From assembly GCA_025454975.1 (NCBI GenBank), contig JALONK010000029.1:1-42290 (forward strand): 42,290 nucleotides of DNA, written 5' to 3'. Shown in pieces: positions 17,658 through 37,114 of this stretch (the first letter of the stretch is position 1; each line of letters begins with the position of its first letter). Both the position numbers and the translations under genes were made by a program. The notes beneath the pieces were generated by a model. It saw only the letters and a program-made list of their open reading frames with translations. It was not told the DNA's origin and made no database searches. Source of the DNA: Bacteroidia bacterium (GTDB lineage Bacteria > Bacteroidota > Bacteroidia > UKL13-3).

Positions 17658-18711
17658 TTTATTTAGCTATGCAGGTGGTGATACAACTCAAATTGTTTCA
17701 ACAGCTAAATATCTTGAAAAGCTAGGAGTTCAGGTAACAATTAAATTAAGTACCGAAAAAATTGATTATTCCCCTTATCATCTTATTCATTATTTTAATA
17801 TTATTGACCCTGAAGATATACTTGGGCACATATTTAAAAGTAAAAAGCCTTATGTGGTATCTACTATCTATGTTGATTACAGTGAATACGATAGAGTTGC
17901 AAGAAAGGATTTACTTGGTTTTGTAAGTAAGTTTATAGCCAAAAACAGAATTGAATATCTTAAAACAACCGCAAAGTTTTTATTAAAAGGCGAAAAGGTA
18001 AGTACCTTGCTTTTCTTTCTTTATGGGCACAAAAATTCAATCCGTTATATCCTTAAAAATGCCAGTGCTCTATTACCAAATTCACATAATGAGTATAAGC
18101 GAATTGTAAATGATTTTGGAATAGATAAACCATATTTTGTAATAACTAACGCCATTGATGCTGAATTATTCAAGTCTTCAAAAGAATATATACGAAATGA
18201 ACAATTGGTGTTATGTGCTGCCCGTATCGAAGGAAATAAAAATCAACTAAATCTTATTAAAGCAATCAACCAAACACCATATCAATTATGGTTGGTAGGA
18301 AAAACATCAACTAATCAAAAGCGATATGTTAGTTCATGTAAAAAACTAGCCAACCAACAAACAACCTTTTTAGCACCGGTAACACAAAACGAATTAGTAG
18401 CCTTATATGCACAAGCAAAAGTGCATGTGTTACCTAGCTGGTTTGAAACCACCGGTTTATCAAGTTTGGAAGCGGCAGCAATGGGTTGTAATATTGTTGT
18501 TGCAGATAAAGGAGATGTGCGTGAATATTTTGGAGATTTAGCTTATTATTGTTCGCCTGATAATCCTCAGTCAATACTTAATGCTATACAACAGGCTATG
18601 CAATCAGCAACTAATGAAGTTCTTAGGCAAAAAGTATTAACTGATTATACTTGGGAAAAAACAGCACAACAAACCTACCAAGCCTATAAAGCTATATTGA
18701 AAAATGATTGA
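17629..18711 (+). CDS. GT4-family glycosyltransferase
   Basis: Retaining GT-B glycosyltransferase that probably adds a sugar to the lipid-linked repeat unit in the cytoplasm. The N-terminal domain begins MKVLFIARHDLFSYAGGDTT, with the early glycine pair of GT4 enzymes. The C-terminal donor-binding domain has LVLCAARIEGNKNQLNLIKAI, then the E-x7-E motif (Glu273 in PSWFETTGLSSLEAAAMG and Glu281), and VADKGDVREYFGDLAYYCSPD. Length (360) is normal. Its ATG lies inside the end of the preceding gene and its stop overlaps the next start by 8 bases. Sugar specificity is unknown. Confidence 0.88.
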   Translation: MKVLFIARHDLFSYAGGDTTQIVSTAKYLEKLGVQVTIKLSTEKIDYSPYHLIHYFNIIDPEDILGHIFKSKKPYVVSTIYVDYSEYDRVARKDLLGFVSKFIAKNRIEYLKTTAKFLLKGEKVSTLLFFLYGHKNSIRYILKNASALLPNSHNEYKRIVNDFGIDKPYFVITNAIDAELFKSSKEYIRNEQLVLCAARIEGNKNQLNLIKAINQTPYQLWLVGKTSTNQKRYVSSCKKLANQQTTFLAPVTQNELVALYAQAKVHVLPSWFETTGLSSLEAAAMGCNIVVADKGDVREYFGDLAYYCSPDNPQSILNAIQQAMQSATNEVLRQKVLTDYTWEKTAQQTYQAYKAILKND

Positions 18712-19474
18712 TTTTATAAGATTAGAAAATGAAAAGGAGCAATTAAGGATACAATACTTAATTGCAAAACCTTTTCCTCATTTAATTATTGATGCATTTT
18801 GCTTTTCAGATAAAGCATTGTTGCTACACAATCAAATACCTGAAATTACAACTAAAAGTAGAGATTATGTATTTGCAGCCAATAAGTTCGAAAAATCAAA
18901 AATTAAAGATATTTCGCCATTGTTTGAAGAATTGTACAACGATCTGATTTCAGAACGATTTCAACAATTGCTCAGATTTATTACCAATGAAGATGTTTTT
19001 GTTGACCAAGCCTTTCATGGTGGAGGTATTCACCAAGGTAAAAAGAATAGTTTCTTAGATATGCATATTGATTTTAATTATCATCCACTGCATAAAAATT
19101 GGTTCCGAAATTTAAACTTACTTTATTATTTAAATAAAGATTGGAAGCCCGAATATGGCGGACATCTAAAAATAGAAGACCTGCGTTCCGGTGAAAAGAA
19201 AAGTTTAGAGGTTCCATTTAATAGATTAATCATTCAACAAACCCGCAATTATACCTTACATGGATATGATTTAACCTCTTTTCCTGAAGGTAATTATCGT
19301 ACATCAATAGCTGCTTACGCCTACACTATTCATCAAGTGCATATAGAACGGCCACGTACCACCGATTGGCACCCTGCAGATGGTCAGCCGATAAAACAAT
19401 TCTTGGCACGTATTTATGATCCTGCTGTAAAAATTAAAAATAAGTTGTTTGGCAGCTCTACAGCAAAGCATTAA
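18704..19474 (+). CDS. 2-oxoglutarate/Fe(II)-dependent oxygenase
   Basis: Belongs to the prolyl-4-hydroxylase-like 2OG-Fe(II) oxygenases, which hydroxylate an organic substrate while decarboxylating 2-oxoglutarate. The iron triad is visible as His121-x-Asp123 (FLDMHIDFNYHP) and His186 (NYTLHGYDL); Arg199 (GNYRTSIAAYAY) would bind 2-oxoglutarate. The core NLLYYLNKDWKPEYGGHLKIED matches the typical YLN.dW....GG.l.l pattern. There is no leader, so it acts in the cytoplasm. It sits inside the glycosyltransferase operon, overlapping both neighbours, which suggests that it hydroxylates a sugar, a lipid-linked intermediate or a non-sugar decoration of the glycan. The substrate is an inference from position only. 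Confidence 0.87.
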   Translation: MIDFIRLENEKEQLRIQYLIAKPFPHLIIDAFCFSDKALLLHNQIPEITTKSRDYVFAANKFEKSKIKDISPLFEELYNDLISERFQQLLRFITNEDVFVDQAFHGGGIHQGKKNSFLDMHIDFNYHPLHKNWFRNLNLLYYLNKDWKPEYGGHLKIEDLRSGEKKSLEVPFNRLIIQQTRNYTLHGYDLTSFPEGNYRTSIAAYAYTIHQVHIERPRTTDWHPADGQPIKQFLARIYDPAVKIKNKLFGSSTAKH

Positions 19475-20559
19475 TGAAAGTAGCCATTATAGGAACACGA
19501 GGCATTCCCAACCACTATGGCGGATTTGAACAGTTAGCTGAGTACCTGTCGGTGGCTTTGCATAATAAAGGTTTTGAAATTACAGTTTATAACTCATCAT
19601 TACATCCTTTTCAAAACTCCTCATACAAAGGTGTTCGAATAATTACATGTAAAGATTTTGAAGACAGATGGGGCACAGCAGGTCAGTTTATTTATGACCT
19701 GAATTGCATACTTCATTCTAGAAAAGAAAACTACGATGTAATTATTCAGCTTGGCTATACCAGCAGCTCTATTTGGTGGTTTTTATTACCATCATCTGCT
19801 AAAATAGTTACTAATATGGATGGTTTAGAATGGAAGCGATCTAAGTATTCATGGCCTGTAAAATTGTTTCTTCACCTTGCTGAATTTATAGCTGTTTTTT
19901 CAAGTGATGCACTAGTGGCCGATTCTGTTGGGATTGCATCTTATATTAAAAACAAGTTTAGAAAAGATTCCCACTATATTGCTTATGGAGCAAATATTTT
20001 TAAATCTCCTGATGCTTCCGTTTTAAATAAATATCAATTAAGTCCGTTTGCCTATTATTTAATTATTGCGCGATTAGAGCCCGAGAATAATATAGAAACT
20101 ATAATTAAAGGCTATCTAAAAAGTGATAAAAAATTCCCATTGGTAATTGTTGGGGGGTTAAATAAATATGGTGCACAACTCAAAAATAAATATAACAATC
20201 CCGGTGTGATTTTCTTAGGTAGTATTTACCAACTTGATGAGCTTAATCAACTTCGTTATCACTGTACATTATATTTTCATGGACATACTGTTGGAGGAAC
20301 AAATCCTTCCTTATTGGAAGCGATGGCTGCTCATGCATTTATTGTTGCTCATGATAATGTATTTAACCGATCCGTATTAATGCAAAGCGCTAAGTTTTTT
20401 GTTTCAGATGATGACATAGCAGCTTTAATTAATGAGGAAGTTAAAGAAGAACAACGCAAGCTGTTTACTGAATTTAATGCCGAAACCATTACTAAAAATT
20501 ATTCATGGCCTTTTATATCAGACAAATACGAACATTTGTTGAATACAATCATTAAATGA
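19474..20559 (+). CDS. DUF1972-type GT4 glycosyltransferase
   Basis: The N-terminus MKVAIIGTRGIPNHYGGFEQ is the signature of the DUF1972 domain found in rhamnosyltransferase-like GT4 enzymes. Further family blocks are TNMDGLEWKRSKYSWPVK, DALVADSVGIASYI, YGAN, and in the donor domain HGHTVGGTNPSLLEAMA. Members transfer a sugar, often to an early intermediate of surface polysaccharide. Length (361) is normal and all blocks are present. Its ATG shares one base with the oxygenase stop (TAATG) and its TGA overlaps the next ATG (ATGA), so it is translated as part of a coupled chain. Confidence 0.92.
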   Translation: MKVAIIGTRGIPNHYGGFEQLAEYLSVALHNKGFEITVYNSSLHPFQNSSYKGVRIITCKDFEDRWGTAGQFIYDLNCILHSRKENYDVIIQLGYTSSSIWWFLLPSSAKIVTNMDGLEWKRSKYSWPVKLFLHLAEFIAVFSSDALVADSVGIASYIKNKFRKDSHYIAYGANIFKSPDASVLNKYQLSPFAYYLIIARLEPENNIETIIKGYLKSDKKFPLVIVGGLNKYGAQLKNKYNNPGVIFLGSIYQLDELNQLRYHCTLYFHGHTVGGTNPSLLEAMAAHAFIVAHDNVFNRSVLMQSAKFFVSDDDIAALINEEVKEEQRKLFTEFNAETITKNYSWPFISDKYEHLLNTIIK

Positions 20560-21800
20560 AGCTTATAAGCCGGTATATCAACGCTGAACAATTACAATCT
20601 ACTTCATTACTGTTGGTGGTGCTTACCATGTGTTTGCCCATTCCAATCAATAATGTTTGTATTATTCTTGCGCTATTACTTCAAGTTATCCATTGGCGTT
20701 TTAATACTTTTTTGCAACAAGCAAAGCATAATAAAGTAAATATACTTTTTGTCTGTTTTTTTCTTATATGTTTATTCTCAGCATGGCACAGTAATCAACA
20801 GGATCAGGCTGCCATTGAAATTGAAAAGCGACTTTTGTTTATCATCTTTCCGGTTATTATAACCGGGGTAAATAAAATATATGATGTAAAACGAATAGAA
20901 AGGACATTTGCTGTGGCCACCACTATTGCAATTCTATATTGTATAATAATTGCAGTAATCAACTATTCTGCTACCCATCAAACAGATGTATTCTTTTACC
21001 ATAAGTTTTCTAACGCAATCCATTTTAATGCAATCTATCTTTCAATGTATGCCGTGTTTGGTGTATTTATATGTTTAGTTCATTACCGTAATTCGGCCCC
21101 GCTTTCTAAAAAAATATTAGCTTTTTGCTGCATAATATTATTCATAGGTGTAATTTTACTTAATTCAAAAAACATGCTTTTTGTATTGCTCGCAGGCATG
21201 TTATGGATCACCGTTCAATTTTTAGCCATGCCTAAAAAATGGCTTTTTGTACTTCCAATTATTTTAATTGTATTGTCATTAATTAATCCGGTTCGTCAAC
21301 GATTCATTACTGAATTAAAATCCGATTTTAGTGTCGTTAAACAAGACTCTTTTAGGTATGATACACCATTTTCAGGAGCAACCCTACGTCTTGTGCTATG
21401 GAAAAATAGTTTGCTTATAATTGAAGAACAAAATGCATGGATAACCGGAATAGGGTTGGGCGACTTTCAAAGCTCATTAAATCAATTATACCAACAAACC
21501 GGAATGTACACCGGAAATCCTAAATTAGGCGATACCGGTTACCTTGGCTACAACCCGCATAATTTTTGGGTTGAAGTGTTCTTGTTCAGTGGTTTAGTCG
21601 GATTGCTTATTTGTACGCTGATTGTTGTTTTTTTAGCTTACCAGTGCATACGAACCAGGTTATACCTTGGCATTTTACTTATCTTTATTTTTTTATCATT
21701 AAGCGTAACCGAATGTTTGTTAAGTACAAATAAAGGTATCGTTTTCTTTACCTTTTTTTTCTCGTTGTATTCTTCGGTTAAAATTATTAAAAGCCGATAG
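20556..21800 (+). CDS. O-antigen ligase/polymerase family membrane protein (Wzy_C-like)
   Basis: 414 residues with about 11 helices. The big periplasmic loop contains TLRLVLWKNSLLIIEEQNAW, ITGIGLGDFQSSLNQLYQ and GYNPHNFWVEVFLFSGLVG; the NPHN...E....G.xG pattern is typical of the Wzy_C/WaaL family. This makes it the better ligase candidate of the two such proteins in the locus, the other being at 16386. It overlaps the DUF1972 glycosyltransferase by four bases. A 110-base gap before the sugar-transferase gene follows. Whether it joins glycan to lipid A or to protein, or polymerises, cannot be decided from sequence. Confidence 0.82.
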   Translation: MKLISRYINAEQLQSTSLLLVVLTMCLPIPINNVCIILALLLQVIHWRFNTFLQQAKHNKVNILFVCFFLICLFSAWHSNQQDQAAIEIEKRLLFIIFPVIITGVNKIYDVKRIERTFAVATTIAILYCIIIAVINYSATHQTDVFFYHKFSNAIHFNAIYLSMYAVFGVFICLVHYRNSAPLSKKILAFCCIILFIGVILLNSKNMLFVLLAGMLWITVQFLAMPKKWLFVLPIILIVLSLINPVRQRFITELKSDFSVVKQDSFRYDTPFSGATLRLVLWKNSLLIIEEQNAWITGIGLGDFQSSLNQLYQQTGMYTGNPKLGDTGYLGYNPHNFWVEVFLFSGLVGLLICTLIVVFLAYQCIRTRLYLGILLIFIFLSLSVTECLLSTNKGIVFFTFFFSLYSSVKIIKSR

Positions 21801-21910
21801 ATTTTCAGCATTTCTTTTGTTATGTTTGGTGTCTGTTTTAGTTGTTTCCCCACGTTACAATTGCCAATTTAAATAACTGACTGTTGTAATTATAACTAAC
21901 ACCTATTGTT

Positions 21911-22543
21911 TTGGAAAATTTTGAGATTGATTGCAAACTAGATAATCCATTTTATGCCGCCCTTAAGCGCTTATTCGATTTGTGCTTTACATTAGTTGCC
22001 TTTGTGATGATTCTGGTTTGGCTTATCCCGTTGCTTGCTTTATTAATAAAATTAACCTCTAAGGGTCCGGTTTTTTTCTTGCAAAAACGCACAGGGTATA
22101 AAAATAAACCATTTGTTTGTATAAAGTTTCGATCAATGAGGTTAAATGATGAAGCTGATACCAAACACGCCATAAAGAATGATGCAAGAGTAACTGCTGT
22201 CGGATATTATTTACGCAAGTTTAGCTTAGATGAATTACCTCAGTTTATTAATGTATTCCTAGGACAAATGTCGGTAGTTGGGCCGCGTCCACTTATGATT
22301 AAACATACAATGGAAAATGAGAAAGTACTCATAAATTACCAATGCCGTCATCATGTTAAGCCCGGTATTACCGGTTTATCTCAATATAAAGGATACCGAG
22401 GGGAAATGCACGATTACCAAATGCTACGTAATAGGCTGCGTCTTGATTTATTTTATATCAATCATTGGAGCTTTACTTTAGATTCGTTTATCATTGTTAA
22501 AAGCATAAAATTAATGTTGTTTGGTGATGCTAAGGCATTTTAA
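21911..22543 (+). CDS. Initiating polyprenyl-phosphate sugar-1-phosphate transferase
   Basis: A WcaJ/PglC-type bacterial sugar transferase that moves a sugar-1-phosphate from a UDP-sugar to undecaprenyl phosphate, the first step of glycan assembly. At 210 residues it is the short form: one N-terminal membrane segment (LCFTLVAFVMILVWLIPLLALLI-like, ~20-42) and the catalytic domain. Family motifs are KRLFDL, GPVFFLQKRTGYKNKPF, IKFRSM, LRKFSLDELPQFINVFLG and SVVGPRPL, then KPGITGLSQ. The start is TTG at 21911; the frame is closed at 21893 and has no ATG before the membrane helix. Its place in the middle of the locus is common in Wzx/Wzy systems. Confidence 0.92.
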   Translation: MENFEIDCKLDNPFYAALKRLFDLCFTLVAFVMILVWLIPLLALLIKLTSKGPVFFLQKRTGYKNKPFVCIKFRSMRLNDEADTKHAIKNDARVTAVGYYLRKFSLDELPQFINVFLGQMSVVGPRPLMIKHTMENEKVLINYQCRHHVKPGITGLSQYKGYRGEMHDYQMLRNRLRLDLFYINHWSFTLDSFIIVKSIKLMLFGDAKAF

Positions 22544-22623: not shown

Positions 22624-23790
22624 ATGATTAAAGGAGATGCTCTCTTTAATATTTTAAAAAATGTATTAGCAACTTTTCAGTTGTTCATATTATCAATTAT
22701 TGTTGTGCAGTTAACCTCGTTAGCTGTTTGGGGCGATTTTATTCGCGTTTATTTGATTTGTACCTTAATAGTTATGTTAATTAATACAGGTAGTAAAGAG
22801 TTTCTTATCACTGCTATAAGTCATACTCCAACTCAACAATGGCAACTATTGTATAATCACTTTTGGTTTCGTTTTTTACTGCTGCTTGCTATTGTGCCTG
22901 GCTTGTTTTTGTTCGCAAAGTTTAACGTCATTACTTTGCTGATAGTTTTAATAATGATTTTTATACGAACCATTTTGTCAAGTGTTGATGGCCTGGTAGT
23001 GTATAATAAGGCATTTAACTTAAGCTTCTATGTTGAGTTATTCTCCTTATTCATGCTTTTGATTATGCTCATTACGGCGTATAATTTTACAAAATTAAAT
23101 ACTCATGTTATACTGCTATTGATGATTTTTATTGATACAGTAAAACTGTTTGCTTTTAATCACCGTTTTAAACTATTTCGATATTTTCGTGTACAAGATT
23201 ATTCATTTCTTAAACAAGTTAAATCAATAACACCTTATATGCTTATTGGTATAATTGGTTTTATTATGAATAAGGCTGACCTGTATGTTTTTACTTGGTT
23301 ATCGCCCGATAAAGAATCTGTAGCTGTTTATCATATTTTAAACACATTAACTAATGGTATATTAATTATCATTAGTTCTATGATTCTTGTTCGAAGTAAA
23401 GTTTTTTTTCGTATGCCTTTATCATTAATTAAACCTCTTCAATTTAAATATCTTTTGTACAGTTCTGCTATTATTATGTTTTGCCTCGGATTATTTTATG
23501 CAGTTGCCCCAATCGTATTTAAATATAACGTGGGAGTGCTGGCTTTGCTGCTAATCGGCCTTAATGGAATTGTATTTAGTCAGTATGTGATATTAATTTA
23601 CTTGAATCTACGATTCAACCAAATTAAAAACAATAACCTTATTATTGGGGTTGCCGGATGCACACAGATTGCTGCTACGTTTTTGCTTGTGCCTGTTTTT
23701 AATGTAGAAGGAGCATTATCAGCTGTTCTATTATCTAACTTAATTGTAGGTTTCGGGTTGAGGATAAGTACGACTAAATATTTGACCTGA
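22624..23790 (+). CDS. Second, shorter Wzx/MATE-like flippase
   Basis: 388 residues, almost all hydrophobic, with about 11-12 helices. It starts IKGDALFNILKNVLATFQLFILSIIVVQ and has WGDFIRVYLICTLIVMLINTGSKEFLITAIS, the helix 1-2 pattern of MOP-superfamily flippases. The segment MLIGIIGFIMNKADLYVFTWLS matches the mid-protein helix with a charged residue pair seen in Wzx. It is about 90 residues shorter than the flippase at 14936, and unlike it. Its last 51 bases overlap, tail to tail, the end of the SGNH gene on the other strand. It may flip a different lipid-linked glycan, or have another transport role. Confidence 0.7.
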   Translation: MIKGDALFNILKNVLATFQLFILSIIVVQLTSLAVWGDFIRVYLICTLIVMLINTGSKEFLITAISHTPTQQWQLLYNHFWFRFLLLLAIVPGLFLFAKFNVITLLIVLIMIFIRTILSSVDGLVVYNKAFNLSFYVELFSLFMLLIMLITAYNFTKLNTHVILLLMIFIDTVKLFAFNHRFKLFRYFRVQDYSFLKQVKSITPYMLIGIIGFIMNKADLYVFTWLSPDKESVAVYHILNTLTNGILIIISSMILVRSKVFFRMPLSLIKPLQFKYLLYSSAIIMFCLGLFYAVAPIVFKYNVGVLALLLIGLNGIVFSQYVILIYLNLRFNQIKNNNLIIGVAGCTQIAATFLLVPVFNVEGALSAVLLSNLIVGFGLRISTTKYLT

Positions 23791-25128: not shown

Positions 25129-26292
25129 ATGCACAGCCGAACCATTGTAAGCGCAATATACTTTTGCTTAATAGCTATTGTGTTTGGTGTGTTTATTGAA
25201 GCCTGTAAACATGAAAACTACCAGCCGCCTGAATCCAACCTCACTATTAAACTTAAATGGAATAAGGGCTACAATGCTGAAACAATTGACAAAGCAGCTA
25301 CAGGATTGTTATGGTGCTTTAGTTTCTTGGGTGCCGAATTACCTAAAGGTAGCTTTGAACAGGCAGTAACCTTTAATCAACAAGTTTTAACAGTGCAGTT
25401 AAACAAACTTGGATTTAATTCGCAGGCTATTGAAGCATTCTCTAAATTAATTCCGATTATTAAATCAAGTGAAGAATATAAAATTACAGGCGCAATTGAT
25501 TTAGGACGTTTTATAATGCTCACGTTAAATTCATCTTACCACTATTATGCCATTGTTGGTATGCCGCTTTTATTTAATGAATTTAAAGCAGGTAAGCGAT
25601 TTGACAATAAATTGTTTGTTTCTACCAATTCCAAAATTTCGCGCAATGACAGAAAAATTCAATTGCCCGATAGCAATAACACAAGCTTTAAAGAAGATGC
25701 ATATATCGCTAATGAATGTGAAGGACGCATTAATTTAGGTCAAACAACTATTGTTGCGCATGAAGTGTCGGAGCAAATGCCCAATGGACAATTTCGTTTT
25801 GCGGTATATGATACCACAGGTAGTTTATTAACCGCAGCAAAAGGTGAGGCCGGGAAACCTGCTAAATGTTTATGGTGTCACGAAATTTATGTTTCACCAT
25901 TGTTTGCCCCTCAAACCGATGTTCCGGGTTATTATAGTGCTGAGGAGTTTAATAGAATAGTCGCCAGAAATATGCTTCGTATCACTGCATATCGTAATAC
26001 ATTAACCTCTGATTTAGATTTTAAAAAGAGACAAGACCATACTTTAATGGAGTTATTGTACATTTCATTTACGGAGCCTTCGGCCGAACGTTTATCACTA
26101 GAGTGGGGATTGACAGTTGAAGTTGTGAAAGAAAAATTAAAAGGATTAACAACACACCGACATGATGAATTTGACTACTTAGGTGATTTATACTATAGGG
26201 AAGAAGTTGAACCCTTTGCTCCATTTGCAGCTATCAAAACACCAACATCGGCACGCGAAAAATCATCTTACGAACCTCGTTTAATACCATAA
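25129..26292 (+). CDS. Exported lipoprotein with a single CxxCH (haem c-like) motif
   Basis: 387 residues. The leader ends FIEAC, giving a lipidated Cys26 and an outward-facing product. One CxxCH motif is present, Cys247-Leu-Trp-Cys250-His251 within GKPAKCLWCHEIY, which could attach haem c. No standard cytochrome c fold is obvious around it, and the remaining protein has no repeats or enzyme motif I know. Later landmarks are QDHTLMELLYISF and THRHDEFDYLGDLYYREE, the latter rich in His and acidic residues that might bind metal. It is 8 bases upstream of the first radical SAM gene, in the same direction, so it is likely the first gene of that operon. Haem binding is an inference; a zinc site is the alternative. 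Confidence 0.7.
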   Translation: MHSRTIVSAIYFCLIAIVFGVFIEACKHENYQPPESNLTIKLKWNKGYNAETIDKAATGLLWCFSFLGAELPKGSFEQAVTFNQQVLTVQLNKLGFNSQAIEAFSKLIPIIKSSEEYKITGAIDLGRFIMLTLNSSYHYYAIVGMPLLFNEFKAGKRFDNKLFVSTNSKISRNDRKIQLPDSNNTSFKEDAYIANECEGRINLGQTTIVAHEVSEQMPNGQFRFAVYDTTGSLLTAAKGEAGKPAKCLWCHEIYVSPLFAPQTDVPGYYSAEEFNRIVARNMLRITAYRNTLTSDLDFKKRQDHTLMELLYISFTEPSAERLSLEWGLTVEVVKEKLKGLTTHRHDEFDYLGDLYYREEVEPFAPFAAIKTPTSAREKSSYEPRLIP

Positions 26293-26300
26293 TTGGAATA

Positions 26301-27380
26301 ATGATAAAAGGTAAAATCAAATCACTTAATTCAAAATACTTTCCTCAGCATTTATTTTATGCTCCTGAATGGCTAGTGCTTGGTGTAAATAATGCCTGCA
26401 ATTTACACTGTAAAATGTGTGATGTGGGTGTCGGATATACTTCAAGCAACTTTGCCACTAACCTTTTAGGAAGTAAACCATTAAATATGCCTATTGATTT
26501 GTTGAAAAAAGTAATTGATGAAACTGCAACCTATTTTCCACATACTAAATTGGGATATGCTTCAACTGAACCATTGGTTTATACCTACTTGGAAGAATCA
26601 TTAAAGTATGCACAATATAAAAACCTGTATACTGCCATAACCACTAATGCATTAGTTTTACCACAAAAGGCTAAAATGCTTTGTGAAGCAGGATTAAACG
26701 AGATTTCAATTTCTTTAGATGGTACACAAAATGTACATAATGAAATTAGAGGCAATGCCAAATCTTTTCAGCAAGCTATAAAAGGTATTGAAGCCTTATT
26801 GGAAGAAAAGAATACGCCTGACATTTCAGTTTATTTTGTAATTACCGAGTGGAACATTGATGAAATGGTAACTTTTGCCGAATTTTTTAAACCATATCCA
26901 TTAAAGCGATTAGGATTTATGCATACCAATTTCACCACTAAAGCCGGTGCTGAATTACATAATTCAATTTGGGGTGAACACTATCATGCTACTTTATCAA
27001 ATACACAAGAGATAAACGTAGAGCAAATGAATTTGCCTCACTTAATGGGGATTATAAATAAGATTAAACAAAGCCAATATCCTTATGAGATTACCTTCTC
27101 GCCTAATATTACCTCACTTCAAGCTTTAGAGAAATATTATTTGAAGCCTGAATTGTTCTATGGAAATAAATGCCATGATGTAAATAGAAATATCATGATA
27201 AAATCAGATGGATCAGTGATTCCATCACATGGAAGATGTTATAACCTTACCATCGGTAATCTTTATCAACAAAACTTAAAAGAAGTATGGAACAGCGACA
27301 TAATTAAAAAACTAAGAACAGATTTAAATAAAGCAGGCGGTTTATTTCCTGCGTGCAGCCGCTGCTGTAGCGCTTTGTAA
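26301..27380 (+). CDS. Radical SAM protein with SPASM-like C-terminal cluster domain
   Basis: The 4Fe-4S/SAM motif is Cys33-x3-Cys37-x2-Cys40 in NNACNLHCKMCDVG. The partial TIM-barrel continues with YASTEPLVYTYLEE, TTNALVL and ISLDGTQNVHNEIRG, a common radical SAM layout. The C-terminus has a Cys in GNKCHDVNRN, another in SDGSVIPSHGRCYN, TIGNLYQQNLKEVWNS, and a final CSRCCSAL, which is a SPASM/twitch-type auxiliary cluster region. SPASM enzymes modify peptides, sugars or other small molecules. It has no B12 domain, unlike the three other radical SAM genes downstream. The gene follows the CxxCH lipoprotein by 8 bases and precedes the next radical SAM gene by 75 bases. Substrate unknown. Confidence 0.88.
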   Translation: MIKGKIKSLNSKYFPQHLFYAPEWLVLGVNNACNLHCKMCDVGVGYTSSNFATNLLGSKPLNMPIDLLKKVIDETATYFPHTKLGYASTEPLVYTYLEESLKYAQYKNLYTAITTNALVLPQKAKMLCEAGLNEISISLDGTQNVHNEIRGNAKSFQQAIKGIEALLEEKNTPDISVYFVITEWNIDEMVTFAEFFKPYPLKRLGFMHTNFTTKAGAELHNSIWGEHYHATLSNTQEINVEQMNLPHLMGIINKIKQSQYPYEITFSPNITSLQALEKYYLKPELFYGNKCHDVNRNIMIKSDGSVIPSHGRCYNLTIGNLYQQNLKEVWNSDIIKKLRTDLNKAGGLFPACSRCCSAL

Positions 27381-27455
27381 CTAAAGATGTTAGTTTTAGT
27401 GCTAAATAGTTTTTAATTATATTGCAACTTAAATTTCGATAATATACCTACATTC

Positions 27456-28952
27456 ATGTCAACCGTCCTTTTATTTAATCCAAGAAGTGCAAATTTTAAA
27501 TTCCGAATTCCTAATTCAGTTTTGCAAATAGCTGCCTCTATTGATGGATTATATTCCTGGACAATAGTAGATGGAAACCGAGAATATAAACCATATGATA
27601 AGTTGTTGGCTTCGATAACTCCTCAAACAAAATTTGTTGGATTTACTGTTATGCCGGGGCCACAACTAAAAGAGGCCATCCCTTTTGCAAAAAAACTTAA
27701 ATCATTATATCCTCACATAAAAATGATATGGGGAGGTTATTTTGCATCAAATCAATATAAAGCTGTGTTACAGTCGGGGTTTGTTGATTATGTGATTAAT
27801 GGCCCGGGTGATTATGCATTTCCTGCTTTATTACAAGCCTTAGAACTTAATCAACCTATTCATGATATCGAAAATTTAATTTATATACATAACGGTGAAA
27901 TATTTAAGACAAAAAAAGCAGAGTTGGTAAATTATGACAACCTTAAACCGTTGCCATATGATAAATTAAATCAACAATATGATATTGAAAAATATCTTGG
28001 AAAAACATACCTCGGCGAAAAAACATTAGCTTACCATAGCAGTTTCGGTTGCCCATTTACCTGTTCATTTTGTGCAGTCGTGCCTATTTATAATGCCAAG
28101 TGGAAAGCAAAATCAGCCTTAGGTGTTTATCATGATATTAAATATATAAAAGATAAATGGGGGGCAAATGCTGTTGAATTTCATGATAACAATTTTTTCG
28201 TATCAGAGAAAAGGGTAATTGAGTTTTGTGAATTGATAAAGGATGAAAATATAATTTGGTGGGGCGAAGGAAGAATTGATACTATAAATAAATATAAAGA
28301 TTCAACTTTAGCTTTAATGAGGGAATCGGGTTGTAAAATGATATTTTTTGGAGCAGAAACCGGAAACGATGAGGTACTTAAAAAAATGGATAAGGGTGGT
28401 ACACAAACCGGTCAACAAATAATTGACTTTGCTGCACGTATGAAAAGGTTTAACATTATTCCCGAATATTCATTCGTGCTTGGAACACCCGCCGATACGC
28501 AGGAAGAAGTAATGAAACAGATAGATTTTGATATCAACTTTATCAAGAAAATCAAAGAAGTTAATCCCGCTACCGAAATAATCATCTATGTATATAGTCC
28601 GGTCCCTACTGAAGGATCTGATATGTATAATAAAGTTTTGGAGAGTGGATTCAAATTTCCCCAAAAACTTGAAGATTGGCTATCTAATGATTGGGAAAAT
28701 TTTGACCTGCGTAAAAATCCGCTTACACCATGGCTTACCCCTAGTATGATAAATAAAATCAAGAATTTTGAAACTGTATTAAATGCATATTACCCAACAG
28801 AAACTGATATTAGGCTTAAGAAGTATCAACGCTTAATTTTAAAAGCAATCTCTTTTATAAGGTACAAATTAAATTGGTACAAATTTCCTTATGAAATTAA
28901 AGCATTACACATTTGGTGGAAATATCGTCAGCCTGAAACACAAGGATTTTAA
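27456..28952 (+). CDS. B12-binding-domain radical SAM protein (BchE-like family), copy 1
   Basis: 498 residues. The N-terminal ~150 residues form a Rossmann-like cobalamin-binding domain (VLLFNPRSANFKFRIP, VGFTVMPGPQLKEAIPFAKKL, MIWGGYFASN, VINGPGD), without the DxHxxG histidine used in classical B12 binding. The radical SAM motif is Cys199-x3-Cys203-x2-Cys206 in FGCPFTCSFCAV. It continues with EFHDNNFFVS, WWGEGRID, FFGAETGNDEVLKKMDKG and YSFVLGTPADTQEE, typical of this family. Members methylate unreactive carbons or rearrange rings. Its stop shares one base with the methyltransferase start. It is the most divergent of the three B12-type copies here. Confidence 0.9.
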   Translation: MSTVLLFNPRSANFKFRIPNSVLQIAASIDGLYSWTIVDGNREYKPYDKLLASITPQTKFVGFTVMPGPQLKEAIPFAKKLKSLYPHIKMIWGGYFASNQYKAVLQSGFVDYVINGPGDYAFPALLQALELNQPIHDIENLIYIHNGEIFKTKKAELVNYDNLKPLPYDKLNQQYDIEKYLGKTYLGEKTLAYHSSFGCPFTCSFCAVVPIYNAKWKAKSALGVYHDIKYIKDKWGANAVEFHDNNFFVSEKRVIEFCELIKDENIIWWGEGRIDTINKYKDSTLALMRESGCKMIFFGAETGNDEVLKKMDKGGTQTGQQIIDFAARMKRFNIIPEYSFVLGTPADTQEEVMKQIDFDINFIKKIKEVNPATEIIIYVYSPVPTEGSDMYNKVLESGFKFPQKLEDWLSNDWENFDLRKNPLTPWLTPSMINKIKNFETVLNAYYPTETDIRLKKYQRLILKAISFIRYKLNWYKFPYEIKALHIWWKYRQPETQGF

Positions 28953-29620
28953 TGTATAAATTGATAAAATATTTTGTTTCGATTTTTATTAATCCTTTTC
29001 TAACTGCTTATTTGAAAAATGACAGGTGGTATAAATATGGACCTATAAAAATACTAATAAAACAAGGTGTTTTTCATCCTTCTTTTTTCTTTAGTACCAA
29101 GTTCTTACTTACCGAGGTTAAAAAATTACCCCTCGCAGATAAGAGACTATTAGAACTAGGAGCGGGTAGTGGATTAATATCTTTTTATACGGCCCGGGTA
29201 GGAGCCCATGTTACTGCTACTGATATTAGTGAAAGGGCAATTGAGGGATTGAAATTTAATCAACATCGGTTAAACTTACCAATTACAATTATAAAGTCTG
29301 ACCTGTTTCAAAAAATTCCCCTGTGTGCATTTGATATAGTGGTTATTAATCCTCCTTATTATCCTAAAAATCCAACTCATGAATCACAATTTGCATGGTA
29401 TTGCGGCAACGATTTTCAATATTTCAAACACTTGTTTAATCAACTTAAACCTTACCTGCATTCTTCAAGTATAGTATATATGTCACTGTCTCAAGATTGT
29501 CAAATCAACGTTATTCAAGAAATTGCTGCAACTGCCGGTTTCTATTTTGAAACACAAAAAGAAAAGCGTTTATTGTGGGAAGTAAATTATATTTATAGCA
29601 TCAAAGCTAAGGCTCATTGA
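28952..29620 (+). CDS. SAM-dependent methyltransferase with NPPY motif (HemK/MTQ2-like)
   Basis: 222 residues. The SAM site is visible as LLELGAGSGLISFYTAR (motif I) and VTATDISERAIEGLKFN (acidic loop), then SDLFQKIPLCAFDIVVINPPYYP (motif IV). NPPY marks enzymes that methylate a planar amide or exocyclic nitrogen, as in PrmC/HemK and DNA adenine enzymes. The N-terminal 45 residues (KLIKYFVSIFINPFLTAYLK) are basic and partly hydrophobic, perhaps a peripheral membrane contact. It is coupled to both neighbours, sharing one base with the radical SAM stop before it and four with the nucleotidyltransferase after it. It therefore probably acts on a small molecule of this pathway rather than on release factors. 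Confidence 0.87.
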   Translation: MYKLIKYFVSIFINPFLTAYLKNDRWYKYGPIKILIKQGVFHPSFFFSTKFLLTEVKKLPLADKRLLELGAGSGLISFYTARVGAHVTATDISERAIEGLKFNQHRLNLPITIIKSDLFQKIPLCAFDIVVINPPYYPKNPTHESQFAWYCGNDFQYFKHLFNQLKPYLHSSSIVYMSLSQDCQINVIQEIAATAGFYFETQKEKRLLWEVNYIYSIKAKAH

Positions 29621-30570
29621 GTAAGGTTGAATCATATATTGCCCCACAGGAAATAACATCTTCCGAAATTAAAATACTAAAAGCAGTATTGTATTTTAAT
29701 ATTTTCAATCATCCACTTTCAATACAAGAAATCATAAGATTTAGTGAATTATCCAACACTGAAATTAATGACTTACCAGCCCTGTTACAAAATTTAATTT
29801 CTCGAAATTTTCTTTTTGAAATTAATGGATATTATTTGATCAACAATCAACCGTTATTTGTTCAGCGACGTTTGGAAGGTCAACATTTAGCTAAACGATA
29901 TTTAACACGTGCAATCTTGGTATCTCGAATAATATCATGGTTCCCATTTGTTAGAGGGGTAATGATTTCAGGCTCCCTTTCTAAAGATTATATGGATGCA
30001 GGTTCAGATATTGATTATTTTATCGTAACAGAAAAAGGCCGACTTTGGGTTTGCCGAAGTATCTTAGCCTTGCTACGTAAAGTTATGATTGGTCCCATGC
30101 GTAAATATTTCTGTATTAATTATTTTGTTGCTATTGATGCCTTGCAAATACCTGATCAAAATATTTTTACTGCAACAGAAATTGTAACAGTATATCCAAC
30201 TTATGGAATAGATGTATATCAACTATTACAACACTCGAATCAATGGACAAAGCAATATTTACCCAATGCCGAAGTACGTGTTGTTGATATAAATAGTAAG
30301 AAATATGTGTTAAGTCTAAAATCATTATTTGAATGGATTTTCAGTGGCTCGCTTGGCGAACGGTTAGATACATATTTATTTAAATTAATGCTTAAACGCT
30401 GGAAGAATAGGTACAATCATTTTGACGAAAGTGAATTCGATGTTAATATGCGTACTAAAAAGAATATTGCTAAGCAACATGAAAAAGGACATCAGTTCGT
30501 GATTTTGCAAAAATATAAATCACAAATAGATGTATTTGAACAACAACATGGAATAAAATTGAATGGCTAA
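29617..30570 (+). CDS. Winged-helix plus nucleotidyltransferase (MNT-type) protein
   Basis: 317 residues. Residues ~15-80 look like a winged helix (SSEIKILKAVLYFNIFNHPLS, then LLQNLISRNFLFEINGYYLI). The pol-beta-type nucleotidyltransferase core follows: Gly119-Ser120 in MISGSLSKDYMDAGSDIDYFIV, with the metal-binding Asp131 and Asp133. The C-terminal ~170 residues have some amphipathic and hydrophobic segments but no known domain. Such enzymes transfer NMP groups to small molecules or proteins; the winged helix could contact nucleic acid or be structural. The start is a TTG that overlaps the methyltransferase stop (TTGA), and its end overlaps the next radical SAM gene by 8 bases. The substrate is unknown. 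Confidence 0.82.
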   Translation: MSKVESYIAPQEITSSEIKILKAVLYFNIFNHPLSIQEIIRFSELSNTEINDLPALLQNLISRNFLFEINGYYLINNQPLFVQRRLEGQHLAKRYLTRAILVSRIISWFPFVRGVMISGSLSKDYMDAGSDIDYFIVTEKGRLWVCRSILALLRKVMIGPMRKYFCINYFVAIDALQIPDQNIFTATEIVTVYPTYGIDVYQLLQHSNQWTKQYLPNAEVRVVDINSKKYVLSLKSLFEWIFSGSLGERLDTYLFKLMLKRWKNRYNHFDESEFDVNMRTKKNIAKQHEKGHQFVILQKYKSQIDVFEQQHGIKLNG

Positions 30571-31996
30571 AATATTTATTACTCACTCTTACTTTTTAAG
30601 GTTTGATGCCAAGCAATGGGAGAATCAACAGCCCTATGCTCCTTTAGCAACGTTATATGTTGCTTCAGTATTACGTAATGCTGGTAATGAGGTGTTCTTT
30701 TACGACGTCATGTTTAATGAAACTGTTGAGCAAATGGAAAAAGTTTTAACACAACAACAACCTGATGTATTTATTATTTGTGATGATGGATTTAATTATT
30801 TAACAAAAATGTGTCTTACCAATATGAGACACGCCGCTTATGAAATGATAGGATTGGCAAAGAAATATGCCTGTCAAGTAATAATATCCAGTTCCGATTC
30901 AACCGACCACTCTGCTTCATATTTAGATAAAGGTGCTGATTTTATTGTTATTGGAGAGGCTGAACAAACCATGCTGTTACTTGTTCAAGCCATCAATGAT
31001 AAGCAGCCAATTTTTAATGAAATTCAAGGGCTAAGATTCCTACACAATAATCAACTTATCAGCACACCAAAAAGAGAGAATCTTAAAGATTTAGATACGC
31101 TGCCAATGCCCGCTTGGGATTTGGTTAATATCGAATCCTACAAACAACGTTGGTTAGCGAAAAAAGGTTACTTCTCAATGAATATTGGAACTACTAGAGG
31201 TTGTCCGTTTAAATGTAATTGGTGCGCAAAACCAATTTATGGACAACGTTATAATTCGCGTTCACCTCAACATGTAATATCTGAAATACAATATTTACAA
31301 CAACAGTTTGGTGTTCAACATATCTGGTTCTGTGATGATATTTTTGGCTTAAAACCTAAATGGACCAATGAATTTTCCACCTTAATTAAACAAGAACAAA
31401 TTATAATCCGATTTAAAATTCAATCAAGAGTTGACTTGCTATTGGAGGAAAATAATATAGTTGCATTAGCTCAAGCAGGTTGTGATGAAGCATGGGTTGG
31501 TGCTGAAAGTGGCTCTCAAAAAATTCTCGACGCCATGGATAAAGGTACGCAAGTTCAACAAATTTACGAGGCAACAGGATTAATGAAAAAATTTGGCATA
31601 AAACCCTGTTTTTTTCTTCAGTTTGGATACCTGAATGAGACGTATGAAGATATAAAATTAACCTTAAAAATGGTATATGAACTGATGCCTTACGATATAG
31701 GCATCTCAGTTTCTTATCCTTTACCGGGAACAAAATTTTACGATATGGTAAAGGATCAGTTAAAAGGGAAAACCAATTGGACAGATTCTGATGAATTAGC
31801 CATGATGTTTAATAGCACATATCCGGGCGAATTTTATAAAAAACTACAACGTTATGTGCATAGTGAATACCGTAAACGTAAAGCAATCAAGGCTTGGCAA
31901 CAACATCGTGATATAAAAAAAGTATTGTCATTATTGTTTAGAATTCCACAAACCATTAAGTTAAAAGCGCAGGTACTCCGATATGTAAAACTCTAA
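30563..31996 (+). CDS. B12-binding-domain radical SAM protein (BchE-like family), copy 2
   Basis: 477 residues. The N-terminal cobalamin-binding-like domain runs to ~190 (FITHSYFLRFDAKQWENQQP, then GADFIVIGEAEQTM). The cluster motif is Cys214-x3-Cys218-x2-Cys221 in TTRGCPFKCNWCAKPIYG. Other family blocks are WFCDDIFGLKPKW, WVGAESGSQKILDAMDKG, FFLQFGYLNETYED and SVSYPLPGTKFYD, and a C-terminal MFNSTYPGEFYKKLQRYVHSEY block like that of BchE. The B12 lower-ligand histidine motif is absent, as in most BchE-like proteins. It starts 8 bases inside the nucleotidyltransferase gene. Its closest relative in the window is the next gene, so the pair arose by duplication. Reaction unknown. Confidence 0.9.
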   Translation: MAKIFITHSYFLRFDAKQWENQQPYAPLATLYVASVLRNAGNEVFFYDVMFNETVEQMEKVLTQQQPDVFIICDDGFNYLTKMCLTNMRHAAYEMIGLAKKYACQVIISSSDSTDHSASYLDKGADFIVIGEAEQTMLLLVQAINDKQPIFNEIQGLRFLHNNQLISTPKRENLKDLDTLPMPAWDLVNIESYKQRWLAKKGYFSMNIGTTRGCPFKCNWCAKPIYGQRYNSRSPQHVISEIQYLQQQFGVQHIWFCDDIFGLKPKWTNEFSTLIKQEQIIIRFKIQSRVDLLLEENNIVALAQAGCDEAWVGAESGSQKILDAMDKGTQVQQIYEATGLMKKFGIKPCFFLQFGYLNETYEDIKLTLKMVYELMPYDIGISVSYPLPGTKFYDMVKDQLKGKTNWTDSDELAMMFNSTYPGEFYKKLQRYVHSEYRKRKAIKAWQQHRDIKKVLSLLFRIPQTIKLKAQVLRYVKL

Positions 31997-32042
31997 TTTG
32001 GATTATTGGTGATTTAAACGAGATGGTTTAATAAGGATTGAT

Positions 32043-32050
32043 TACATTTG
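32043..32050 (+). promoter_or_regulatory. Candidate internal -7 element before the last radical SAM gene
   Basis: TACATTTG matches TAnnTTTG exactly in the 64-base gap between two radical SAM genes. The ATG follows 10 bases after it, so the transcript would have a very short leader. No clear TTG is placed at -33, so the call is weak. Confidence 0.35.
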
Positions 32051-32060
32051 TTTTATCATC

Positions 32061-33446
32061 ATGAGAATAGTATTAACGCACGGATATTTTTTAAAAGAAG
32101 ACGCAAAAGAACAAGAAATTATGCGCCCATATATTCCATTGGGTATTCTATATATTTCTGCTTGGCTTCAAAAACATGGTTACGATAATGATATATTTGA
32201 TAGTACCTTCCAAAGTTTCGAACAACAACAACAATTTATATTAGAGAAAAAGCCTGATGTAATTGGCGTATATACAAACTTAATGACGAAATTAAATGTG
32301 TTGCGACTTGTTCAATTTGTAAAGAGTAAACCCGAGCTATCACACACAAAAATTGTATTAGGTGGCCCCGAAGTTCGCAACCACATGAAAAACTTTTTAA
32401 GCTATGGCGCTGATGCTATAGTACTTGGCGAAGGTGAAGAAACAATGCTGGAGATTGTACAATACTTTAATCAAAAATTGGATAAGAATATTCATGAAAT
32501 TGACGGAATTGCATTTCTAAGTGAAACAGGTGAATGTGTACAAAATAAAGAACGTGCAAAGTTGAAGGAGCTATCTGATTTGCCTTTTCCCAACCGTAAT
32601 AAAGTAAATCTTCAATTATATTTTGATGCATGGAAACAAAAACATGGCACAAGTGCTATTTCTATCAATACCATGCGCGGATGTCCTTATACATGCAAGT
32701 GGTGCAGCCGCGCAGTATACGGTCAAAGCTACAGACGGCGTAGTGCTAAAAATGTTGTTGATGAGATGGTATGGATTAAACAAAACTATGAAGTTGATAC
32801 CATTTGGTTCGTTGATGATGTATTCACCGTTAGTCATAAGTGGTTAAAAGAATTTAAAGAAGCATTACAAGCGGCCAATATTCAATTTCCTTATGAATGT
32901 ATTACTCGCGCTGATAGAATGAATGAAGAAGTAATTCAAGACCTTAAAGCTTCCGGATGCTTCAGGGTTTGGATTGGGGCAGAAAGTGGTTCACAAAAGG
33001 TAATAGATTTAATGGATAGACGTGTGGATGTGAACAAAGTGCGTGAAATGATACAACGCTCACAAGCTAATGGTATACAAGCAGGAACATTTATTATGGT
33101 TGGCTATCCGGGCGAAACAGAAGAAGATATTTTTGAAACTGTTAATCATTTGAAAGTTTCAAATCCAGATATTTTTACGATAACCGTAGCCTATCCAATA
33201 AAAGGTACCCCGCTTTATGAAGAAGTTGAAGATAGATTTATTGCTGATTTACCTTGGGAAAAAAGTACTGATCGAGATATTGATTTTAAACGTACTTATT
33301 CACGCAAATATTATAACCATGCTGTAAGCATGATTATTAATGAGGTAAACGCTTTTAAAGCAAAACAAAGGGGGGAGCATTTAAATTATCATAAACTTAA
33401 ACTAAAAGCCATAACCCAACGTGGCAAAATGCTTTTAACAAAATAA
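32061..33446 (+). CDS. B12-binding-domain radical SAM protein (BchE-like family), copy 3
   Basis: 461 residues, collinear with copy 2: VLTHGYFLKEDAKEQEIMRP at the start matches that protein's start in pattern. The B12-like domain has IVLGGPEVRNHMKNFLSYGAD and VLGEGEETM. The radical SAM cysteines are Cys208, Cys212 and Cys215 in RGCPYTCKWCSRAVYGQ. Further blocks are WFVDDVFTVSHKWLKEF, WIGAESGSQKVIDLMDRR, FIMVGYPGETEEDI, TVAYPIKGTPLYEEV and the C-terminal FKRTYSRKYYNHAVS. All domain features are intact. It is the last gene of the block, 64 bases after copy 2, and may have its own promoter. No hairpin terminator is clear downstream. Confidence 0.9.
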   Translation: MRIVLTHGYFLKEDAKEQEIMRPYIPLGILYISAWLQKHGYDNDIFDSTFQSFEQQQQFILEKKPDVIGVYTNLMTKLNVLRLVQFVKSKPELSHTKIVLGGPEVRNHMKNFLSYGADAIVLGEGEETMLEIVQYFNQKLDKNIHEIDGIAFLSETGECVQNKERAKLKELSDLPFPNRNKVNLQLYFDAWKQKHGTSAISINTMRGCPYTCKWCSRAVYGQSYRRRSAKNVVDEMVWIKQNYEVDTIWFVDDVFTVSHKWLKEFKEALQAANIQFPYECITRADRMNEEVIQDLKASGCFRVWIGAESGSQKVIDLMDRRVDVNKVREMIQRSQANGIQAGTFIMVGYPGETEEDIFETVNHLKVSNPDIFTITVAYPIKGTPLYEEVEDRFIADLPWEKSTDRDIDFKRTYSRKYYNHAVSMIINEVNAFKAKQRGEHLNYHKLKLKAITQRGKMLLTK

Positions 33447-33871: not shown

Positions 33872-34555
33872 ATGAAAGCAGTAATAACCGGCGATATTAT
33901 TCAATCAACAAAAATGACCGCTAGTCAGCGCATATCCTTAATAAAATACTTAGAAAATGCCCTATATAATTGGAGTAAAGACTATAACTTTCAATATGAA
34001 ATATATCGTGGTGATAGTTTTCAGTGTTTACTTAATCACCCTTTATATGCATTAAGAGTAGCGTTACAGGTAAAAACGTATATAAGAGGATTAAATCCAA
34101 ATTCAGTCTATAAATTAAGCGCCGAAAAACAACCATCAAAAGTACAAACCATGATATACCCAATCTGGATGTTTGATATACGACTGGCTATTGGCATTGG
34201 CGAAGTAGAAGGAAAAACAAGGTCTCTTCGAATTGCAAATGGAAACGCATTTTTGCTGTCGGGTCGAAGCCTGGATAGTTTAAAAAGAATAAAACAAACT
34301 TTAGGTATCGCATCAAATGATGTTTTCCAAGTTGAACTGGATACCGAATTCTATTTATTAGACCATATTATAAGCAAAACTACTGCCTTGCAATCAGAAG
34401 TAATCTGTTTAAAACTACTTGGTTATCCCGAAATCGAAATTGCTAAGATGTTAGGAATCGCACAATCGGCTGTTAACCAACGTTCAAACAAAGGTGGCTG
34501 GAATGCCATTGCAAAAATGGTCAGGCGTTATGAAAGTATATACCATTCCAAATAA
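33872..34555 (+). CDS. SatD-family protein: cyclase-like N-terminal half plus C-terminal HTH
   Basis: 227 residues. The start MKAVITGDIIQSTKM is characteristic of the SatD family, named from an acid-tolerance locus in streptococci; its biochemical role is not known to me. In pattern the N-terminal half resembles class III nucleotide cyclases: Asp8 in TGDIIQS, Asp48 in YRGDSFQCLL, RLAIGIGEVEG (104-114) like the cyclase RxGIxxGxV strand, and GNAFLLSGRSLD (124-135) like GxAVNxAARL. The C-terminal ~55 residues form an HTH (SEVICLKLLGYPEIEIAKMLGIAQSAVNQR) of the sigma-region-4/LuxR kind. The DUF3307 gene follows after 9 bases, a recurrent pairing as I recall. The cyclase comparison is mine and untested; catalytic activity is not assured. 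Confidence 0.8.
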   Translation: MKAVITGDIIQSTKMTASQRISLIKYLENALYNWSKDYNFQYEIYRGDSFQCLLNHPLYALRVALQVKTYIRGLNPNSVYKLSAEKQPSKVQTMIYPIWMFDIRLAIGIGEVEGKTRSLRIANGNAFLLSGRSLDSLKRIKQTLGIASNDVFQVELDTEFYLLDHIISKTTALQSEVICLKLLGYPEIEIAKMLGIAQSAVNQRSNKGGWNAIAKMVRRYESIYHSK

Positions 34556-35448: not shown

Positions 35449-35508
35449 TTTATTTTGTTTAGATGAAGAGTTGATATTTACTTTTAAATTATTTATTTTG
35501 TTTAAATG
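35449..35508 (+). repeat. 17-bp near-identical direct repeat before the GT87 gene
   Basis: TTTATTTTGTTTAGATG (35449-35465) and TTTATTTTGTTTAAATG (35492-35508) differ at one base and begin 43 bases apart. They lie in the 243-base gap between the DUF3307 gene and the chosen GT87 start; the rest of that gap shows no gene. Each copy ends in an ATG, the second opening a 29-codon frame that overlaps the GT87 start out of frame. Confidence 0.5.
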
Positions 35509-35554
35509 TCTCAACTTTATTTTAATAAATGCTGTGATATTAAATCACATATTA

Positions 35555-37114
35555 ATGAAGGTAAATTCAAAAAAATCGTTAGATCGTATTTATAAGTTAC
35601 TCTTTAATCATTTATATGAAGGCTTATCAGCTGTAATTATTGCATTGTTAATAGCATTATCTGCAACTAAGGCAATAGGTGATTTTGGTAATTATTATTA
35701 TGGTTCCTTGTTTTTACTAGATGGGTCGTGGGGCCCATGGGTGTTTGACACGGCATCCTTTAACTTGAAAATTTACGAACTGGGACAACGTAATTATTTT
35801 CTTGATTATACTCCCGTACCTCCATTTTCTGCCCTACTATATATTCCTTTTGTATTTTCGCCTATTGCAAAGGCAAAATTGTTATGGAATATAATCAATG
35901 GAATCCTTTTGCTCCTTATATTTAAAAAGTTATACCACTCCTTCAATATTCCCAAGTATGTATTATTTAGTTTTTTTATCCTATTAATTATTCCTTTACG
36001 CAACAACTTTTATGAAGGACAATCGTATGTACTGATTTGCTTTTTATTGCTTGAAGGTTTACTGCAATATTTAAAAGGAAAAACTTGGATAATGGCATTA
36101 ACTTGGGCTATCTGCATTCATCTTAAAATAAGCCCCATAATCGTTGTTTTTTTTCTTCTTTTTAACCAAAGTTATAAAGCATTACTTTATTTACTTTCAT
36201 CAGTAAGTTTAATTTTTATTATTTCAATACCTTTTGTCGGTAGTCAGGTTTGGATAATTTACTTAACTGAAATACTAACCCGCTTGGCCAATGGTGAAAT
36301 AAACAACCCTTATGCTTTAAACTACCAAAGTATGCAGGTTCTTCTTAAAACATTGTTCGTAAGTGATAGTCATTTTAATCCTCAAGCCGCCTTTCATGCC
36401 CCTTGGTTATATGATAAATTAGTACAGCTCTTTAAATTAACATTAATGCTATTTGGTATTGCATTTACTGTTGGTCAGCATTCAAAACAAGAAAAGTTTG
36501 CTATATGGATACTCATCTTATTATTAGTAAGTGGTTATGGTAACTCCTTTAGTTTATTGTTTTTGTTATTCCCCTTAACCTTCTTTTATGAAAAATTTCT
36601 TCCTTTAAACATCTTCCAAAAATTTGGTATCGTGATTTTATTTTTGATAGTTGTAATGCCGTTTTATTGGTTTCAATCTTGGCCTTTTCCTTTTCGCTTT
36701 CTACGGCTTTATAGTTTATTAGCAATATTAATTATACTCTACCGAATTTCAGAGATACATATCTATAAACCCTTGTTTCTCGTAGTTATTTTTATATTTT
36801 TCATACCTACATCCAAACATCTTAACTCCGGCTACAATTTATTAAACTCTAATTCGCCATTATTGGTGTATGATTTTTCTATAGAAGGACACCAATTGAA
36901 ATTAAACTATTTCGATTTTAATGGTCCTAATATAAAACTTATTAAACTACCTTACCACGCTTCAAAAACGTTAGTTTTATCTGATACTGTTCTATCTTGG
37001 CGAAGGGTAAAACGAATTTGTGTCAATGATTCGGAGGAGTATTTTCTGTCTGACCAGAATCGTGGGGTCGGATTTTATACCATTTATAAAACCAAGTGTT
37101 CAAACAATCATTAG
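35555..37114 (+). CDS. GT87-family (DUF2029) polyprenol-dependent glycosyltransferase-like membrane protein
   Basis: About 519 residues from the ATG at 35555 (MKVNSKKSLDRIYKLL). The open frame extends upstream to a TTG at 35471, but that part is low in coding character. Eleven or so helices follow a first helix and a periplasmic loop with FGNYYYGSLFLLDG, YELGQRNYFLDYTPVPPFSALLYIPF, close to the D.. YR.A/YPP pattern of GT-C mannosyltransferases of family 87. Further marks are NNFYEGQSYVLICFLLLEG (the family's GQ.N/S motif) and ICIHLKISPIIVVFFLL, then ALNYQSMQVLLKTLF. The C-terminal ~90 residues are soluble. Such enzymes add mannose or arabinose from polyprenyl-phosphate sugars outside the membrane. 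It may decorate the glycan encoded upstream. Confidence 0.78.
   Translation: MKVNSKKSLDRIYKLLFNHLYEGLSAVIIALLIALSATKAIGDFGNYYYGSLFLLDGSWGPWVFDTASFNLKIYELGQRNYFLDYTPVPPFSALLYIPFVFSPIAKAKLLWNIINGILLLLIFKKLYHSFNIPKYVLFSFFILLIIPLRNNFYEGQSYVLICFLLLEGLLQYLKGKTWIMALTWAICIHLKISPIIVVFFLLFNQSYKALLYLLSSVSLIFIISIPFVGSQVWIIYLTEILTRLANGEINNPYALNYQSMQVLLKTLFVSDSHFNPQAAFHAPWLYDKLVQLFKLTLMLFGIAFTVGQHSKQEKFAIWILILLLVSGYGNSFSLLFLLFPLTFFYEKFLPLNIFQKFGIVILFLIVVMPFYWFQSWPFPFRFLRLYSLLAILIILYRISEIHIYKPLFLVVIFIFFIPTSKHLNSGYNLLNSNSPLLVYDFSIEGHQLKLNYFDFNGPNIKLIKLPYHASKTLVLSDTVLSWRRVKRICVNDSEEYFLSDQNRGVGFYTIYKTKCSNNH

Follow-up and report, generated by a model that had tools for sequence, protein, structure and literature searches.

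Radical S-adenosylmethionine (SAM) enzymes that employ cobalamin (vitamin B12) carry out chemistry that few other enzymes can do, and most of them are without known substrates. B12-dependent members of this group methylate unactivated carbons or phosphorus and contract or form rings (PMC13331322; PMC13142503), and cobalamin-dependent radical SAM enzymes have been proposed to close the rings of ladderane and tetraether lipids (PMC13142503). The present analysis deals with a block of six genes, A to F, three of which (B, E and F) encode predicted proteins of this kind, located at positions 26301 to 33446 of contig JALONK010000029.1 (42,290 nucleotides, analysed over its full length and hereafter called the window) from a Bacteroidia bacterium of the lineage UKL13-3. 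The described systems closest to it are the hopanoid-associated HpnJ, BchE, the PhpK-type P-methyltransferases and the ladderane-type lipid enzymes for its radical SAM proteins, ANT(4')/kanamycin nucleotidyltransferase (KNTase) for its nucleotidyltransferase D and, for its genomic surroundings, the Wzx/Wzy-type loci, which to our knowledge have no obligate core of nucleotidyltransferase and B12 radical SAM protein. The block represents known enzyme superfamilies in a conserved and apparently undescribed combination. The original prediction, made from the DNA letters alone, knew of no described pathway with such a set, and a search of the open-access literature (subscription journals lay outside it) likewise found no paper describing it.

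All six open reading frames (ORFs) are present in the predicted order and at the predicted coordinates, all on the forward strand, and their Pfam domains agree with the predicted identities. Specifically, A (26301..27380) is a SPASM-type radical SAM protein (Radical_SAM 66.5 bits and SPASM 34.8 bits, both over cut-off), B (27456..28952) a B12-binding radical SAM protein (Radical_SAM over cut-off; B12-binding 33.8, over cut-off) and C (28952..29620) an MTS-type methyltransferase with an NPPY motif (MTS 52.4 bits). D (29617..30570, with a TTG start) joins a winged helix to a nucleotidyltransferase domain, as recognised from its predicted structure and an invariant motif. E (30563..31996) is a B12-type radical SAM protein with a Radical_SAM score over cut-off and a B12-binding score of 28.9 alone and 32.6 with the neighbours in frame, against a Pfam cut-off of 32.1. 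The last gene, F (32061..33446), encodes a B12-binding radical SAM protein as well (Radical_SAM; B12-binding 60.7, over cut-off). Starts and stops overlap exactly at 28952 (B/C), 29617-29620 (C/D) and 30563-30570 (D/E).

The extent of the conserved unit was established by mapping gene families over 71 loci with D. In 59 of them E comes immediately after D on the same strand, mostly with overlapping reading frames, and in 40 of the 71 the pair is followed by MT2, the name used here for a class I methyltransferase some 265 residues long; F is present in 30 loci and the A family in 12. D, E and MT2, to which F is often added, make up the conserved core, and the six-gene set is one variant of it, in which A, B and C are frequent yet optional partners, A especially so. 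MT2, which most relatives carry 3' of E, is missing from the window, as it is beside E in the relative L024. In one genome a natural E-MT2 fusion of 727 residues was found (L121:7741-9921), with MT2 at the C-terminus of E (E domain 678 bits, MT2 domain 206 bits). The linkage that the original prediction had read from the six genes is real, but the limits it had drawn are not those of the unit: there is no clear edge at 26301 or 33446, and further conserved partners begin at 22624, 25129 and 35471.

Recurrence of the gene set is far above chance. Of 296 evenly sampled Bacteroidota genomes, 27 (about 1 in 11, or 9%) have D, 24 have E and 14 have B, and D was present in 24/24 genomes with E and in 14/14 with B; the matches of D in the three genomes with D only were weak or partial. 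With the query genome left out, the hypergeometric P is about 3e-31 for E with D and about 7e-16 for B with D, values that ignore shared ancestry and overstate independence. In a second set, made of 58 relatives of the window's genome, the identical eight genomes carry D and E. D and E behave as an obligate pair, and the claim that the genes form one conserved set, which a lack of joint conservation in related genomes would have contradicted, is borne out by the co-occurrence of D, E and B and by the 71 loci. Moreover, D, E and F have correlated pairwise distances (r 0.75 to 0.94). The distribution of the pair is patchy, since seven of the eight sampled congeners of the window's genome are without it. 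A scan of genome contigs with short exact peptides of D provided 41 loci in named genomes, belonging to relatives of the window, Flavobacterium, Saprospiraceae, Ignavibacteria and Chlorobiota, and returned only Bacteroidota, Ignavibacteria and Chlorobiota. The search of the 58 genomes gave seven further relatives, at least three of them the same genomes as loci of the contig scan. Plasmid carriage of the module was considered and dropped: D had no plasmid match, and for E and B the matches listed were all generic radical SAM proteins of less than 30% identity.

The radical SAM proteins keep their catalytic motifs. The CxxxCxxC motif is intact in 61/61 homologues of E (cysteines C214, C218 and C221), 29/29 of F, 24/24 of B and 11/11 of A, and since the cluster motifs are kept in every homologue, E, F and B are probably active enzymes. 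E and F are paralogues with 33% identity, as seen in pairwise and profile comparison, and B is 47-78% identical among its aligned relatives. The methyltransferase C, which mostly adjoins B, keeps NPPY in 13/13 homologues. Within the B12-binding domain of E, residues 74-89 form an invariant DDGFNYLTKMCL stretch that is absent from its paralogue F, and the invariant Cys84 in this stretch could lie near the cobalt. Of the proteins with solved structures, AprD4 and OxsB are among those nearest to E, F and B.

Curated models place these proteins at a distance from all the named enzymes, with scores of one fifth to two fifths of the respective cut-offs. B, which has the same architecture as HpnJ (TIGR03471), finds in it the best named model, at 118 bits against a cut-off of 577.6, and a hopanoid role was rejected, the 98% complete genome having no squalene-hopene cyclase (PF13243). 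The best named model of E is BchE (TIGR02026; 164.7 bits, with F at 155.5), below the cut-off of 481, and no bacteriochlorophyll genes were noticed in the loci. With such scores and a context of glycan type, the tetrapyrrole product considered in the original prediction is not favoured. F scores best with the PhpK-type P-methyltransferases (TIGR04479; 176.7 bits, cut-off 600), and no phosphonate genes were noticed among the neighbour families examined. As to the ladderane-type lipid enzymes (TIGR04072), F reaches 134.8 and E 110.3 bits against a cut-off of 360, and neither fatty-acid nor carrier genes were seen among the recurring families.

Of the core proteins, D shows the lowest conservation; it matches no Pfam family over cut-off (Polbeta 19.5, cut-off 26.9). 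Its AlphaFold2 model, with a predicted local distance difference test (pLDDT) score of 92.7, consists of a winged helix, for which structural matches were obtained at the N-terminus (residues 10-78), followed by a nucleotidyltransferase fold. G119, S120, D131, D133 and E188 are invariant in an alignment of 42 sequences, so that D carries the GS...DxD motif of Pol-beta type nucleotidyltransferases. Among nucleotidyltransferases the best structural fit is ANT(4')/KNTase, whose alignment with the nucleotidyltransferase domain has a modest Z of 8.3 over about 115 of 317 residues, near the level of common arrangements, with a sequence identity of about 13% and a Foldseek E above 0.01. Unlike ANT(4')/KNTase, D has an extra N-terminal winged helix and a different C-terminus.

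In most loci the surroundings of the core are of glycan type. Glycan-type genes, that is glycosyltransferases, exporters or polymerases, lie within 10 kb of the core in 43 of 53 long loci, and are close by in 25 of the 30 loci that have B. Neighbours identified by Pfam include GT87, GT2 and GT9 glycosyltransferases, O-antigen ligase and an ATP-binding cassette (ABC) exporter. Two layouts are found in Flavobacterium: in one, the core is followed by GT87 and EpsG/GT39-like membrane glycosyltransferases, a GT2 of the polyprenyl-phosphate-sugar type and the families g25 and g22, described below; in the other, by GT4, an ABC exporter and GT2. Loci of the Ignavibacteria type add GT4, GT9, an amidohydrolase and another methyltransferase to the core.

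In the window, the adjoining polysaccharide genes (14936..22543, forward strand, by Pfam) encode a Polysacc_synt flippase, two Wzy_C/O-antigen ligase-type proteins, two GT4 enzymes, a 2-oxoglutarate-Fe(II) oxygenase and an initiating sugar transferase; flippase, polymerase/ligase and glycosyltransferases stand next to one another, as in a Wzx/Wzy surface polysaccharide locus. Three more forward-strand genes belong to families that recur with the core. The first, g22 (22624..23790), is by hydropathy a polytopic membrane protein with about 12 hydrophobic segments, whose family is found in 14 of the 71 core loci; it has no Pfam match and its profile comparison with the window's Polysacc_synt protein is not significant, so that homology to Wzx was not demonstrable by profiles, and its topology makes it at most flippase-like. 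Family alignment shows the second, g25 (25129..26292), to be an exported protein, in most members lipoprotein-like, in which AGKPxKCxWCHE is invariant; this stretch includes a CXXCH motif (C247, W249, C250 and H251 invariant) and is a possible c-type haem site. It has no Pfam or NCBIfam match and no significant Foldseek fold match, which does not prove that the fold is new. All genomes with g25 in the two sets tested (2/2 and 6/6) have D and E, the six being among the eight D-E genomes of the 58 relatives. The third, at 35471..37114, is a GT87 membrane glycosyltransferase (Pfam GT87, 60.9 bits), a family present in 20 of the 71 D loci and, in Flavobacterium, in the same gene run as D-E-MT2-F. 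Because the window's g22, g25 and GT87 belong to recurring families, the adjoining polysaccharide locus probably belongs to the same pathway as the block. The adjacency described in the original prediction holds, but mere neighbourhood mostly does not describe it, as GT87, the CxWCHE protein g25, g22 and GT4 travel with the core in many genomes.

Other genes were observed near the core. A deaminase-type (cytidine/deoxycytidylate) zinc protein with an N-terminal membrane segment occurs in five loci, directly behind MT2 in three (L110:10121-10840, L119:9241-9789 and L120:10124-10699) and near the core in the others (L031:18005-18559, with a homologue in L047). An amidohydrolase (K13, ATZ/TRZ deaminase-like) was seen in nine loci (L029:7783-8958 and eight others), paired with a methyltransferase (K20) beside the core and B, mostly outside Flavobacterium. 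Upstream of B, an arylsulfotransferase (ASST)-type protein is encoded on the opposite strand in three close relatives of the window (L017:5765-7105). Downstream of F, positions 33872-35311 hold a SatD-like/sigma-70 region 4-like protein followed by a DUF3307 membrane protein; this pair has one other occurrence at a core locus, upstream of the core in L030, and was hence not counted among the parts. Two sets of upstream neighbours, polA in Flavobacterium and the indolepyruvate oxidoreductase-like genes in L104 and L105, look like unlinked housekeeping genes.

We put at about even the odds that a conserved biosynthetic module, composed of D-E-(MT2)-F and assisted by A, B and C, supplies a surface glycan or glycolipid with a building block modified by radical chemistry, and that the block is the form which this module takes in the window. 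The chemistry that we infer, and that best suits the module, would be radical C-methylation, or formation of C-C bonds or rings, on the surface glycan, on the lipid that anchors it or on a sugar precursor. E, F and B would use a 4Fe-4S cluster, SAM and probably cobalamin to make bonds at, or methylate, unactivated carbons, whether in a sugar, in the lipid that carries it or in a precursor. MT2 and C would add methyl groups from SAM, with only C left to do so in the window's genome. D, built like aminoglycoside nucleotidyltransferases, would attach a nucleotide to a hydroxyl group of a substrate resembling a sugar or RNA, either as activation or as part of the product, and the GT-C/GT4 enzymes, the exporter and g25 would complete the molecule outside the inner membrane. 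Several observations weigh against this proposal. Ten of the 53 long loci have the core without the recurring glycan families, so that the link to glycans is not obligate, and in L110, L121, L122 and L124 the core stands among unrelated genes. The window's genome has no convincing copy of MT2, part of the usual core, elsewhere either (best match 46 bits), and the shared ancestry mentioned above detracts from the co-occurrence statistics.

Loci in which the core stands alone would suit a pathway for a small diffusible compound, nucleoside- or aminoglycoside-like, in which D nucleotidylates an intermediate or protects the producer and the glycan genes decorate or export the product in some lineages. 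ANT(4') as the best nucleotidyltransferase fit to D, the recurrent amidohydrolase and the membrane-anchored cytidine-deaminase-type protein all agree with it, and AprD4 and OxsB act on aminoglycosides and nucleotides, but few B12 radical SAM proteins have been solved and their closeness says little. Polyprenol-type glycosyltransferases, O-antigen ligase-type proteins, and flippases or ABC exporters are found in most loci, and on balance a small compound is rather unlikely. That the radical SAM enzymes act on the membrane lipid itself by ring closure or methylation, the sugars being its head group, also seems unlikely. The preference of B for HpnJ, the weak matches of E and F to the lipid-pathway models TIGR04072 and HpnR, and the ring closure proposed for ladderane and tetraether lipids (PMC13142503) speak for such a role; however, all these scores are far under the curated cut-offs, the cyclase of hopanoid synthesis is lacking from the genome, and recurrent acyl-carrier or fatty-acid genes are absent from the loci.

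A third reading takes RNA or protein as the substrate: the winged helix of D would bind nucleic acid, its nucleotidyltransferase domain would add nucleotides, and C, which resembles PrmC/HemK-type models and has their NPPY, would methylate a macromolecule together with MT2. The occurrence of the core among unrelated genes fits this as well, but the glycan genes of the 43 long loci, the low conservation of D and a presence in 9% of genomes, patchy and unlike that of a housekeeping modification, make it very improbable. SPASM and B12 radical SAM proteins also occur in pathways for ribosomally synthesized and post-translationally modified peptides (RiPPs), and the block proteins have weak matches to RiPP models. 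These scores are far under cut-off, however, and a comparison of 383 small intergenic ORFs found no family that recurs beside the core, which upholds the predicted lack of a precursor-peptide gene and leaves a RiPP cluster with an unseen precursor extremely improbable.

For the surface glycan or glycolipid proposal, a bolder extension, which we regard as distinctly doubtful, is that the product would be a surface glycolipid of Bacteroidota with a common part built by the obligate pair of nucleotidyltransferase and B12 radical SAM protein, possibly bearing a group of nucleotide or nucleoside origin, to be deaminated at a later stage outside the membrane, and would represent a new class of envelope molecule. 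Up to three B12 radical SAM enzymes are tied to one nucleotidyltransferase in a phylum with many cultured species, among them several of Flavobacterium, which makes the question of their substrate genetically testable. If the product is indeed a surface glycan or glycolipid, this would add radical carbon chemistry to the envelope biology of the Bacteroidota.

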